64,000 bases of DNA. Source: Kushneria sinocarnis (GTDB lineage Bacteria > Pseudomonadota > Gammaproteobacteria > Pseudomonadales > Halomonadaceae). The position numbers and the translations under genes were made by a program. The stretch spans positions 62,001 through 126,000 of the forward strand of contig NZ_RBIN01000007.1 of the NCBI RefSeq assembly GCF_003633775.1, read 5' to 3'. Positions 61,066-64,000 of this stretch are shown here, piece by piece; the stretch's first letter is position 1, and every line of letters starts with the position of its first letter. The notes beneath the pieces are model-generated. The model was not told the origin of the DNA. It saw only the letters and a list, made by a program, of their open reading frames with translations, and did not search any database.

Positions 61066-61471
61066 GAAGATGAACCCCTGCTGTCAATCGGAGAGATTTT
61101 TTCAGCGTTTGCGGTTGTCGGAATCGACGCTGAAAAGTTCCGGCTTGAGCGAGAGTTAATCACCGTTCATGTCAGGGTCAATCAATGCCTGACATGTTGC
61201 GACTAAAGTGTAAACCTGCTGAAACATGTCGGGAAAAGGCTTGAATATCAAAATCTTGCAATAATGTAAGGTTTCGGGTGGGCAGCCGTTGCAAACGGAA
61301 ATGACGTATCCGTGCGGGCGGAAAGGCCAAGCATGGCAGACCACCGGGCTGGATACGCGAGGGCAGCAGGCATCGTCTGCAGCAGGCTGAATGACAAGTC
61401 CTGTGGTACCGACACGACAGTTTCGGCAGTGCGAGGATGACTGCAGGGAGCAAAAGAGGGGACAGGGGAAA
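61066..61471. other. Regulatory gap between tctC and tRNA-Gly
   Basis: No gene is supported in these 406 bases. TTTTCAGCGT (61099-61108) and ACGCTGAAAA (61127-61136) form an inverted repeat in the tctC leader. Three copies of a CATGTC-type arm follow upstream: CATGTCAGG (61168-61176), CCTGACATG (61188-61196, inverted) and AACATGTC (61223-61230). They look like binding sites for a regulator of tctCBA. The gap marks the last host-like sequence before the tRNA and island. Confidence 0.5.
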
Positions 61472-61547
61472 TGGAGCGGGCAACGAGGCTCGAACTCGCG
61501 ACCCTCAGCTTGGGAAGCTGATGCTCTACCAACTGAGCTATGCCCGC
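61472..61547 (-). tRNA. tRNA-Gly (anticodon CCC)
   Basis: A 76-base cloverleaf with encoded CCA. The acceptor arms GCGGGCA and TGCCCGC pair fully. The anticodon arm TCAGC-TTCCCAA-GCTGA carries CCC, which reads GGG. The T arm contains GTTCGAGCC. The gene is complete although it borders an integrated element. Its 5' end, not its 3' end, faces the integrase. Confidence 0.95.
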
Positions 61548-61575
61548 TCGGCCTGAATAACGGCCTACAAACAAC

Positions 61576-61604
61576 AATCTAGAGCAGTGATGATGATGGG
61601 TCAA
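61576..61604 (-). promoter_or_regulatory. Candidate sigma-70 promoter of tRNA-Gly inside the end of the integrase gene
   Basis: On the minus strand TTGACC (61604-61599) is 17 bases from TAGATT (61581-61576), about 29 bases before the tRNA 5' end. The -35 hexamer includes the integrase TGA stop. The -10 is imperfect. Confidence 0.45.
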
Positions 61605-62707
61605 TCATGGTTGCTCTCTCCAGTGTGACTATTTTGTGCAGATAGCCGGTTGACGGCCTCCTGCACAGCTGTGGGTCTCAAATGAGCATAGCGCTGGGTT
61701 GTGTTAATGTCAGAGTGCCCCATTGCCTTGCTCAGGACTTCCATCGGCACATCGGCATTCAGCAGGTAGCTGGCAAACGTGTGGCGGGCATCGTGACGTC
61801 TAAAATCTTCGATGCCCGCCTCGCGTATTGCTGTATTGAATGCGCGCTTCATATCTTTTATGCGCTCTCCCTTCCAGTTGCAGAACACCCAGGGCGATTC
61901 CGGGCAATTCCTGTCCCTGAACGCCTTTCTGCCCCTGATGGCTTTCATGGCCTCATCGTTGAGCGGCACGATCCGGTCTTCCTTCATCTTGCGATTCTGA
62001 CGACTCGGGATTCGCAGTAGACATCTCTGCATATCCACCCGATCCCATGTCAGAGCGCTCACGTCTCCCGCCCTGAGACCTGTAAACACCGACAAGCGGA
62101 TGTGATCTCCGATCCATGGCGCCCGTTTGTTCCGGTCAGCCACGGCTATCAGGCGCTCGATCTGGCTGCGCTCCGCCCATCGGGTCCGCCCCCGCGGCTC
62201 CTGCTCTTTCTGCCGGTGAGCCGGGTTGGGAATATCCCAGTCCAGTTCGTTGCGACAGTAGTTGCACGCAGCGCTGATCAGTCCGGTCTCCTTGTTCACG
62301 GTGCTGGCCCCGACGCTCTCCCTGCGCCGGCGGCGATACGCCCGTATTTCCGATGGATGGATGTCCTCGATCATCCGGCCGTCGAACGCCTCCATGACAT
62401 GCCTGACGATGTATGCAGCACGACTGCGCCCAAATGACTGCACATAGCCCTTGGCAGCCATGTAAGCATCGAGAACGTCTTTCAATGCGTGCTTTTGCTT
62501 CTCCTGGGGCTTGCCCCACACACGCTGCTGATGCGCTTCGTACTTCCATTTGCTCAGAAGCGCATCGGCCTCTTGCTGAGCACCAGCGCGATCTACCCGG
62601 ATTTTAGTAGACTGTCGATGACGCTCTCCGTCTGCTCCGATCCAGCTGGCCCACCAGTACGGCGAGCCTGACCGCTGGTAGAGCCCGTCTTTCTGTTTTC
62701 GCGGCAT
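61601..62707 (-). CDS. Tyrosine recombinase (phage/island integrase)
   Basis: Site-specific recombinase of 368 residues. The N-terminal arm-type region includes RSGSPYWWASWIGADGERH, followed by a core-binding domain and the catalytic domain. Catalytic residues seen are Arg in FTGLRAGDVSALTW, the His-X-X-Arg box in HDARHTFASYLL, His in AMGHSDINTTQRYAHL and the Tyr nucleophile in the same segment. The ATG at 62707 has an AGGAGAAGG site; the longer start at 62746 is rejected. It overlaps the upstream winged-helix gene by 115 bases. The neighbouring tRNA-Gly is the probable attachment site. Confidence 0.93.
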   Translation of the reverse strand: MPRKQKDGLYQRSGSPYWWASWIGADGERHRQSTKIRVDRAGAQQEADALLSKWKYEAHQQRVWGKPQEKQKHALKDVLDAYMAAKGYVQSFGRSRAAYIVRHVMEAFDGRMIEDIHPSEIRAYRRRRRESVGASTVNKETGLISAACNYCRNELDWDIPNPAHRQKEQEPRGRTRWAERSQIERLIAVADRNKRAPWIGDHIRLSVFTGLRAGDVSALTWDRVDMQRCLLRIPSRQNRKMKEDRIVPLNDEAMKAIRGRKAFRDRNCPESPWVFCNWKGERIKDMKRAFNTAIREAGIEDFRRHDARHTFASYLLNADVPMEVLSKAMGHSDINTTQRYAHLRPTAVQEAVNRLSAQNSHTGESNHD

Positions 62708-62931
62708 GTCCTTCTCCTGCCAGACACGCTTGGCTCCGCGCCGCACTGAGTATGCACAGCAGAGTGCTCGCGAGCAAAGCGCGTGATCTCTTCAGCATGA
62801 ATTCGAGGCGATCGGGGCAGCGGGTAGGATGCTGCCAGCTTCCCCGACTCAACGAGTCGCCTGATGGTCCGATGCGAAGAAAAGCCGAGGAGCGGGGCTG
62901 CCTCGGCATAGGTGTAGAATTGCTTGTCCAT
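62593..62931 (-). CDS. Small winged-helix protein, possible excisionase
   Basis: A 112-residue protein. The first 60 residues form a MerR/excisionase-like winged helix: FYTYAEAAPLLGFSSHRTIR, then a basic wing and RIHAEEITRFAREH. The C-terminal half is Ser/Arg/Gly-rich and overlaps the integrase gene in another frame, so it may be unstructured. A GGGAGGGG site precedes the ATG, which itself overlaps the stop of the 58-residue gene upstream (TGATG). Position next to an integrase suggests an Xis-type directionality factor or a repressor. Confidence 0.68.
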   Translation of the reverse strand: MDKQFYTYAEAAPLLGFSSHRTIRRLVESGKLAASYPLPRSPRIHAEEITRFAREHSAVHTQCGAEPSVSGRRRTCRENRKTGSTSGQARRTGGPAGSEQTESVIDSLLKSG

Positions 62932-63107
62932 CACCCCTCCCGATATTTCTGCGCCTCTTCCAGCAACCATGCCCGCTGCACGCTGTCAGGCGGACGCTTC
63001 ATTGCCAGTTCTCGCGCCGCTTCGGCCTTGAAGTGACGCTCTATGCGGTCAATGGTGTGCGTAAATCCGATGTCTTTGATGGACTGAAGGTCGCTGTCGA
63101 TTGTCAT
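62931..63107 (-). CDS. Small unknown island protein (58 residues)
   Basis: A short, charged, helical protein that begins MTIDSDLQSIKDIGFTHTID and ends AWLLEEAQKYREG. The AAAGAGAAAG stretch before the ATG may serve as a ribosome site. The stop overlaps the start of the winged-helix gene (TGATG), which supports it as a real, co-translated gene. I do not recognise the family. Confidence 0.55.
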   Translation of the reverse strand: MTIDSDLQSIKDIGFTHTIDRIERHFKAEAARELAMKRPPDSVQRAWLLEEAQKYREG

Positions 63108-63131
63108 TGCTTTCTCTTTCCACAGATGTCG

Positions 63132-63344
63132 TTATGTCGAATCACATTGAAGGCAGCCCTGATCATGTAGGCCCATATGATCGACGCACATATCCCGCAA
63201 AATATCTTGCTTCCATCCATTAAGGATGATCTCCACTGCCCCCGAGTAGTCAGCGCCAAGCTCGGATCGCCATTTCGGATATAAGCTGCCTCTTGATTTT
63301 AAGTTTACCAACCTTTCTTTTTTAGGATTTCCATCCCTCGCCAT
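63132..63344 (-). CDS. Small unknown island protein (70 residues)
   Basis: A hydrophilic protein starting MARDGNPKKERLVNLKSRGS, with three Cys in the C-terminal third (DMCVDHMGLHDQGCLQC), which could bind a metal. The ATG at 63344 has a GGGAGCGG site; an in-frame start at 63359 is possible. It overlaps the end of the gene upstream by about 40 bases. I do not recognise the family, and base composition is less GC-rich than in the host region. Confidence 0.45.
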   Translation of the reverse strand: MARDGNPKKERLVNLKSRGSLYPKWRSELGADYSGAVEIILNGWKQDILRDMCVDHMGLHDQGCLQCDST

Positions 63345-63529
63345 AACATCCGCTCCCATTTTGTCATCGGTTTATTTGCCAGCGCATAGTCATAAAATCT
63401 GCGACAGAAACTTTGGTAAGCTGCATTCGGCATAATCGAATATCCGGCTATGACTCTACCGTCGCTCGCTATCGCCCAGCACTTCCACATTCCTGACCGC
63501 TGCCTTCGCATTCTTGGCTTGATCATCAT
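63305..63529 (-). CDS. Small basic unknown island protein (74 residues)
   Basis: A basic protein rich in Met, Arg and Trp (MWKCWAIASDGRVIAGYSIM; MTKWERMLWRGMEILKKKGW). It lies 13 bases after the NinX-like gene on the same strand. A GAGGGATG stretch precedes two adjacent ATG codons at 63529 and 63526. I do not recognise the family. Its place among phage-type genes suggests an accessory early gene. Confidence 0.5.
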   Translation of the reverse strand: MMIKPRMRRQRSGMWKCWAIASDGRVIAGYSIMPNAAYQSFCRRFYDYALANKPMTKWERMLWRGMEILKKKGW

Positions 63530-63542
63530 GTGTAGTCATCCC

Positions 63543-63929
63543 TCATCCCATCAGTTCCTTCGGCACCTGAACCGGGTCACCAATCTCTGACATCACGATT
63601 GCCCGCATGGAGGCAATAAGCAGCGTTCTGCCGCAGCACGACCCGATCCCGACAGGCATGGGCCATGTATACCACGGCTCTTCGCCTGAATATTTTTCTG
63701 CACTTGTGATGCACTCTTCAATCAGCGGGCCGCCCTGCGACCAGTCAGTTGATGGCCTAAAAGGAACTGTCTGTTCAGGCGCTATATCTACTGGTTGAGT
63801 AACTATCGCGCCATAGTGAATTGGCCCCCATTGCCCGAATGTCACATCATGACCGACTGCCCTAGCCACTGCGTAATCAAGCGCCGATCCTTCAAGATCA
63901 CACACATCCACTTCAACCATTTCTCTCAT
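63543..63929 (-). CDS. NinX-like (DUF2591) phage protein
   Basis: A 128-residue protein. The N-terminal LEGSALDYAVARAVGHDV and the motif FRPSTDWSQGGPLIE, followed by LLIASMRAIVMSEIGDPVQV, match the DUF2591/NinX family found in lambdoid and other phages. Its function is unknown. The ATG at 63929 has an AGGAGGAAG site; the frame extends upstream to 63992 through a terminator hairpin and is not coding there. It is the clearest phage marker in the element. Confidence 0.8.
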   Translation of the reverse strand: MREMVEVDVCDLEGSALDYAVARAVGHDVTFGQWGPIHYGAIVTQPVDIAPEQTVPFRPSTDWSQGGPLIEECITSAEKYSGEEPWYTWPMPVGIGSCCGRTLLIASMRAIVMSEIGDPVQVPKELMG

Positions 63930-63946
63930 CACTTCCTCCTGCGCAT

Positions 63947-63970
63947 AAAAAAGCCGAGCAGTGGCTCGGC
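63947..63970 (-). terminator. Intrinsic terminator upstream of the NinX-like gene
   Basis: On the minus strand a 7-bp stem GCCGAGC/GCTCGGC with a 4-base loop is followed by TTTTTT. It would end transcription coming from genes beyond the right edge, so the ninX-to-int genes would need a promoter between here and 63929 or some read-through. Confidence 0.82.
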
Positions 63971-64000
63971 GTCTCCAGATACCTGCTGCCAAAACGAGTG

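Follow-up and report, generated by a model that had tools for sequence, protein, structure and literature searches.

A siphovirus-like prophage that inserts at a tRNA-Gly(CCC) anticodon arm, rebuilds the 5' half of the gene, and appears to carry a captured copy of the host tRNA promoter

The stretch of DNA analyzed here (the window, 64,000 nucleotides) corresponds to positions 62001 to 126000 of contig C7 in a 3.51-Mb genome of 18 contigs. Within the window, ARAGORN and a comparison of repeats placed a rebuilt tRNA-Gly(CCC) gene at 61472 to 61547 on the minus strand, and a gene for a tyrosine integrase lies on the same strand at 61601 to 62707. The two genes are in tandem, with 53 bases (61548 to 61600) between the end of the integrase and the start of the tRNA. 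The integrase reading frame is open to a GTG at 62746, and the ATG at 62707 fits the relatives. The product matched the Pfam Phage_integrase family (PF00589; E value, 3.2e-34), and six residues that we take to be catalytic (R226, K254, H319, R322, H345, and Y354) were invariant in an alignment of 10 sequences. An R-K-H-R-H-Y set is the hallmark of tyrosine recombinases, and the protein is a predicted member of that class. An adjoining ORF on the minus strand (62593 to 62970), which as called mechanically overlaps the integrase start, is HTH/excisionase-like; it matched the excisionase PHROGs 66 and 2907 and Pfam HTH_17 at an E value of 8.8e-6 (26.3 bits, with a cut-off of 27). A promoter-like sequence, TTGACC-17-TAGATT (61576 to 61604, minus strand; 9 of 12 matches), precedes the tRNA. 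The last codons of the integrase are CAT GAT TGA, and the TGA stop falls within the -35 box. Two promoter-like sites were found in a 421-bp stretch, compared to a shuffle mean of 0.2, and the -10 boxes are weak both in the element copy (TAGATT) and in the native copy described below (TACATT). The first-pass annotation had set the integrase 53 bases off the 5' side of this tRNA and the -35 of the best tRNA promoter in the integrase stop region, and both claims were borne out by ARAGORN, the ORF coordinates, and the promoter-like sites.

The near attachment site (61508 to 61550, minus strand) is one copy of a 43-bp exact direct repeat that consists of 3 bases plus tRNA positions 1 to 40. A search of the genome with the locus returned a 46-bp match (98%) at C7:171353-171398, of which 43 bp are exact; this far repeat copy (G000:C7:171353-171395) lies 47,845 bp away, outside the window. 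At the far end, the tRNA sequence ends at position 40 and is followed by phage DNA. The displaced fragment is the 5' part of the gene, lies upstream, has the same orientation as tRNA-Gly(CCC), and still adjoins the native promoter; it is the displaced native 5' half. No whole tRNA gene was found by ARAGORN at the far prophage end, and a whole tRNA is present at one end only. In the rebuilt gene, positions 1 to 40 lie inside the prophage-borne repeat and the remainder is host DNA. The integrase gene, ending at 61601, is outside the repeat, with its edge at 61550, and was left unsplit by integration. The gene upstream of the far copy is presumably a Mn-catalase gene, recognized by eye. In the sister species G007, a Mn-catalase-like gene, promoter, and whole tRNA-Gly(CCC) are present without the element, in a comparison that used one genome per species and is thus sister-species evidence. 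The repeat at both ends and the empty site in G007 together indicated that on integration the host acquired a new 5' half and its old one was displaced to the far end. The other end of the island, the crossover repeat, and an empty tRNA-Gly(CCC) site, all of which had been proposed earlier as checks, were therefore found, and the repeat is the 5' half and not a sequence at the tRNA 3' end or outside the tRNA; with the G007 site empty, the gene order is not a fixed ancient feature that lacks an island. In a comparison of 10 genomes from the genus, only this genome and G007 were seen to have tRNA-Gly(CCC) beside a Mn-catalase-like gene. In G003, G006, and G009, the Mn-catalase-like gene locus has no tRNA, and tRNA-Gly(CCC) is found elsewhere with a different upstream region (L012-L015, L016-L020, and L022-L024).

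The element between the repeats is a 47.8-kb siphovirus-like prophage with the integrase at one end. Its left end occupies 61508 to 64000 of the window, and it extends beyond the window as far as C7:171395. A selection of 20 of the ORFs listed for the interval between the two repeat copies was scanned against PHROGs. Matches were obtained for terminase, portal, head maturation protease, tape measure, and central tail fibre J, as well as for repressor, anti-repressor, replication O-like, excisionase-like, and integrase families; two of the 20 ORFs had no PHROGs match. A viral contig of 47,536 bp in IMG/VR carries a 100% identical integrase. No other tRNA gene was detected in the prophage by ARAGORN (L008-L010). 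A P22 NinX-like ORF lies near the left end (window 63543 to 63998, minus strand; Pfam PF10765; E value, 1.7e-11). A 479-amino-acid ORF on the minus strand (L009:9528-10967; C7:152528-153967), opposed to the structural genes and without a Pfam or PHROG match, may be a cargo gene.

The 59 bp upstream of the rebuilt tRNA (61548 to 61606, minus strand) was aligned with the native promoter at the far end and with the G007 empty site. Identity was 39/59 with the native promoter (score, 35) and 45/59 with G007 (score, 59; shuffle maximum, 28), and neither score was reached in 2000 shuffles. When the comparison was run at three lengths, the native score was reached by 0, 1, and 1 of 2000 shuffles and the G007 score by none. 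As a control, 20 upstream regions of other tRNA genes, namely, those of 15 tRNA genes of the same genome and of five tRNA-Gly(CCC) genes of sister genomes, scored 10 to 20, the best of these being matched by 12 of 300 shuffles. Among the listed matches in 275 genomes of the family, with at most three candidates scored per listed genome, G007 was the only one besides the genome itself in which the match spans the promoter; all others listed end at or just before the tRNA. This points, therefore, to capture from the host's own lineage, with divergence of the copies since then. The capture was probably made in a relative or earlier, because the element promoter is nearer to that of G007 than to the native promoter of its own host. 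By its homology, the upstream 59 bp is a captured, diverged copy of the putative host tRNA-Gly promoter and not an invented one. The earlier claim that the element replaced the native promoter and must bring its own is thus upheld by the repeat, the far end, G007, and the homology, with the replacement extending to the 5' half of the gene and the new promoter being a predicted one.

The rebuilt tRNA might instead be transcribed by read-through from the integrase promoter, with the promoter-like site being incidental, as described for archaeal pTN3-like integrases (PMC8371274); the two genes are in tandem with a gap of only 53 bases, and a search of 61380-61800 turned up no terminator-like site. 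However, the homology of the 59 bp to the native promoter argues against this, as does its distribution: the -35 is identical in the element, native, and G007 copies (6/6) and the -10 differs at one base (5/6), whereas in the spacer, which is 17 long in all three, the element matches the native copy at 9/17 positions and G007 at 10/17. Integrase genes are usually silent in lysogens, which also counts against read-through, and we regard it as unlikely beside a dedicated, captured promoter.

The consequences for the host were considered next to the tRNA complement of the genome. The CCC gene was the single one among 7 matches in a DNA search of the genome, which has 58 tRNA matches in total; tRNA-Gly(TCC) is present beside tRNA-Tyr, tRNA-Thr, and tRNA-Trp (L006), and there are three GCC genes. 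In six chosen host genes of the window, GGG made up 55 of 272 glycine codons, and tRNA-Gly(CCC) is therefore used. By wobble, tRNA-Gly(TCC) should read GGG, and the CCC tRNA gene is dispensable in Escherichia coli. Judging from the two repeat copies, clean excision would reunite the native promoter and its 5' half with the remainder of the gene and so restore the native gene; only a partial deletion that removed the integrase end would strip tRNA-Gly(CCC) of a promoter. The first-pass annotation had tied host viability or glycine-codon reading to retention of the element. An addiction device of this kind, in which seizing the promoter of the sole tRNA-Gly(CCC) gene would make loss of the element harmful, could draw on the one CCC gene found and on the GGG codons counted above, but since the native gene would be regained on precise excision and GGG should be covered by tRNA-Gly(TCC), dependence of the host on the element is not supported and that claim is weak; we consider an addiction device very improbable. 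It is least credible of all that the upstream homology is uncaptured host DNA, with the crossover upstream of the promoter and the tRNA never split, for although host homology does extend about 59 bp upstream of the tRNA, it is the far end that has the 5' half, ceases to be tRNA at position 40, and gives the better upstream match to G007 (50/62, continuing into the flanking gene), and the near and far upstream copies mismatch in 20 of 59 aligned columns beside an identical 43 bp, as fits two independent promoter copies and not a single uncut one.

The captured-promoter arrangement was then compared to those of related integrases. Among the 275 family genomes, 18 others had the integrase at an E value of 1e-40 or better. 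ARAGORN detected a tRNA at 15 of the 18, and each time the genes were convergent, with the integrase stop facing the tRNA 3' end. Among the best 80 loci from the GTDB collection, a tRNA 3' end faced the integrase stop in 25 (three of which were taken to duplicate loci of the family set), 2 were in tandem at the tRNA 5' end, 48 lacked a tRNA up to 400 nt from the stop, and 5 were at contig ends. An order-level search of 390 genomes gave 3 with a match at 1e-60, this genome included, and added one locus, L076. No tRNA was found near the integrase of L227, the nearest viral relative. In four close relatives, the repeats begin at tRNA position 30, 31, or 33 and reach the tRNA end, and the prophage repeat, which ends at position 40, just past the anticodon loop, is their mirror image. 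The prophage thus shares with the anticodon-loop group an identity block that ends at the anticodon loop, but the group has the 3' half on the integrase side, whereas the prophage and one further element, L148, carry the 5' half there. In none of the four close relatives did the near and far sequences show homology past the 3' end of the tRNA (842 to 1998 of 2000 shuffles were as good).

L148, from a betaproteobacterial metagenome-assembled genome, has its integrase in tandem before tRNA-Arg(CCG). Its displaced 5' half is 9.0 kb away and is identical through tRNA position 42, and the 60 bp upstream matched between the near and far copies at 45/60, a value equaled in 0 of 2000 shuffles. A tree was built from 50 chosen integrases, most picked for their assigned tRNA side, plus four without one; it is midpoint rooted, contains several long rows, and leaves 17 of 47 inner branches open. 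The prophage integrase grouped with L046 and L047, which are 3' sided, plus the side-unassigned L227 (100/98), and L148 grouped with the 3'-sided L147 plus the side-unassigned L151 (100/100). The starred branches of the tree force at least two changes for the two rows with a 5' half. L148 thereby seems to be a second, phylogenetically independent capture of a promoter region, as read from these alignments.

Other arrangements were seen in a survey of 53 regions behind integrases, 39 of which came from 80 viral loci. The 3' part of a tRNA was convergent with the integrase in 18 regions, a 3' half was in tandem in 5 (L267, L271, L273, L276, and L303), and 28 had no tRNA match. In the five tandem cases the half starts near the anticodon arm, and the identity block is apparently on the side away from the integrase. 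In the viral contig L292, the integrase stands in tandem before a whole tRNA-Gly(GCC) (1/53), possibly a further 5'-side case, and in L163 (867 to 908) the integrase stop is followed by a reversed tRNA-Pro 5' half (1/53), possibly marking a 5'-half element with the integrase at its displaced end. The 9-kb betaproteobacterial element has a second tyrosine recombinase-like gene (Phage_int_SAM_2/Integrase_1; L307:2921-3781) behind the first. For L164, in which an integrase is in tandem with tRNA-Arg(TCT), the 6 matches seen included no displaced half belonging to it. The same Zixibacteria genome contains a tRNA-Arg(CCT) (L222, G648:C26:119504) and a displaced 5' half 22.9 kb away (L224, G648:C26:142389). 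About 130 bp is common to the sequences upstream of L222 and L224 (0 of 2000 shuffles were as good), and no Pfam family match was obtained in 4 ORFs scanned of 16 listed for the stretch. This pair is possibly the relic of a third promoter-carrying insertion and is kept as a lead only.

The position of the crossover and the geometry of the recombination complex were approached from the anticodon arm. The CCC anticodon (61512 to 61514, minus strand) is the center of a perfect 7-bp inverted repeat, TCAGCTT on one side and AAGCTGA on the other, and the arm folds into a hairpin (equaled by 2 of 200 shuffles). The limits of the repeat and the spacing in the arms would place the crossover in the anticodon arm. 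Six elements were compared, two 5' sided and four 3' sided. On the side away from the integrase, WATCAANNNNTTR, which we take to be an IHF consensus, was present at +32 or +33 from the anticodon center in 6/6 elements. An occurrence at 31 to 34 was found in 1, 1, 0, 0, 0, and 0 of 20,000 shuffles, of which the first two figures are after the fact because the motif was spotted in the two 5'-side arms and then sought in the other four. GTCAC was present at +110/111 and +121/122 in 4/6 elements and at +122 alone in the other two. The motif had been expected to occur more widely. Of 12 further attachment-site rows, 5 offered at most 30 nt of arm; the other 7 had enough sequence, and the strict WATCAANNNNTTR was absent from all of them. 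Three of the 7 had it with one mismatch at +32/33 (3, 4, and 14 of 5000 shuffles were as good), L248 had it with two mismatches at +32/33 (188 of 5000), and L295 had it with one mismatch at +22; L251 and L159 had no such site near +32/33 with mismatches allowed. The fixed distance of the IHF-like site in the six elements argues that the complex is the same and that the tRNA is reversed. One intasome mounted either way on a near-palindrome looks to be the simplest reading of these spacings.

Together, these results support, with high confidence, an explanation in which a temperate siphovirus-like phage used tyrosine recombination to insert itself into the anticodon arm of tRNA-Gly(CCC). On the integrase side, the attachment site holds the tRNA promoter region and tRNA positions 1 to 40. 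After integration the tRNA gene is thus still whole but stands behind the phage's copy of the host tRNA promoter, from which it is presumably transcribed, and the native promoter and a 40-nt half gene end up at the far prophage end. The ancestor presumably belonged to an integrase lineage in which the 3' half is the one usually kept. With the same complex in the opposite orientation on the near-palindromic arm, as the motif spacing indicates, the half on the integrase side would become the 5' half, and because the 5' half is next to the integrase, the captured host segment would have needed to extend as far as the promoter. On excision, the native gene would be restored. A broader generalization, plausible rather than probable, is that the palindromic arm is a reversible docking site on which the intasome can be mounted either way. 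Flipped lineages that keep the integrase-side fragment would then succeed only via promoter capture, and sites made of a promoter plus a 5' half would recur independently and explain the few-percent minority of 5'-fragment islands; the phage-borne promoter could drift, and the exiled native promoter would make a 5' half-tRNA RNA.

Insertions of this polarity are known. The Islander collection lists 159 of 3919 islands with a 5' tDNA fragment, compared to 3760 with 3' fragments, and the anticodon region is one of its two classes of crossover site (PMC4383910); in Sinorhizobium meliloti, 9 of 88 are at the tRNA 5' end (PMC11476347). As in the 5'-fragment islands of Islander, the tRNA is restored in the prophage and a 5' fragment is displaced. 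The prophage differs from both accounts, as far as their accessible portions go, in that the promoter region is a homologous, diverged host copy and the attachment site is reversed compared to those of relatives; by term counts, the word "promoter" is absent from the main texts of PMC4383910 and PMC11476347. According to the part of PMC8371274 that was available, an insertion leaves a bacterial tRNA gene under its original promoter in all but a very few cases. In the archaeal pTN3-like elements described there, the 5' tRNA half is the attachment site, the tRNA is reportedly driven by the integrase promoter, and the integrase gene becomes split; such an arrangement is said to be rarely encountered in bacteria, with a citation of Williams 2002 that implies rare bacterial exceptions. 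These elements have in common with the prophage the 5' half as attachment site and an element-supplied promoter, whereas the prophage has a dedicated, predicted tRNA promoter copy behind an unsplit integrase.

Promoters supplied by elements are also known at protein genes. Islands at dusA supply a new promoter, and the same paper cites the likewise case of prfC (PMC8409611). Both dusA islands and SXT at prfC (PMC8409611 and PMC4482086) resemble the prophage in bringing a promoter along with the 5' end of the target gene but, in the text available from these sources, have a protein gene as the target and a crossover that is not in a tRNA arm. In tRNA-dependent lysogeny, a prophage likewise takes over part of the host tRNA function, but the core is short, there is no rebuilding of the host tRNA gene, and a complete tRNA gene of the phage complements it, as outlined in the available part of that report (PMC10865867); the prophage studied here has a 43-bp repeat, a rebuilt tRNA, and no further tRNA gene. 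ICEKp1 likewise couples integrase and tRNA transcription at the attachment site and is the converse case, with a host tRNA promoter that drives the integrase of the element, according to the part of that study at hand (PMC13023037). A search that mostly stopped short of full texts and subscription journals returned no prior account of a homologous captured tRNA promoter or of the reversed arm geometry. Most insertions in tRNA genes restore the 3' half, and the gene keeps its own promoter; here, restoring the 5' half costs a promoter, a cost that seems to have been paid twice independently within one integrase subfamily, by recombination machinery that can apparently face either way on the anticodon arm. 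This yields a rule that is testable on known 5'-fragment islands and a clean system for a prophage that changes a host tRNA promoter. Insertions at a 5' half were already a known minority; what looks new here is the homologous captured promoter and the reversed arm.
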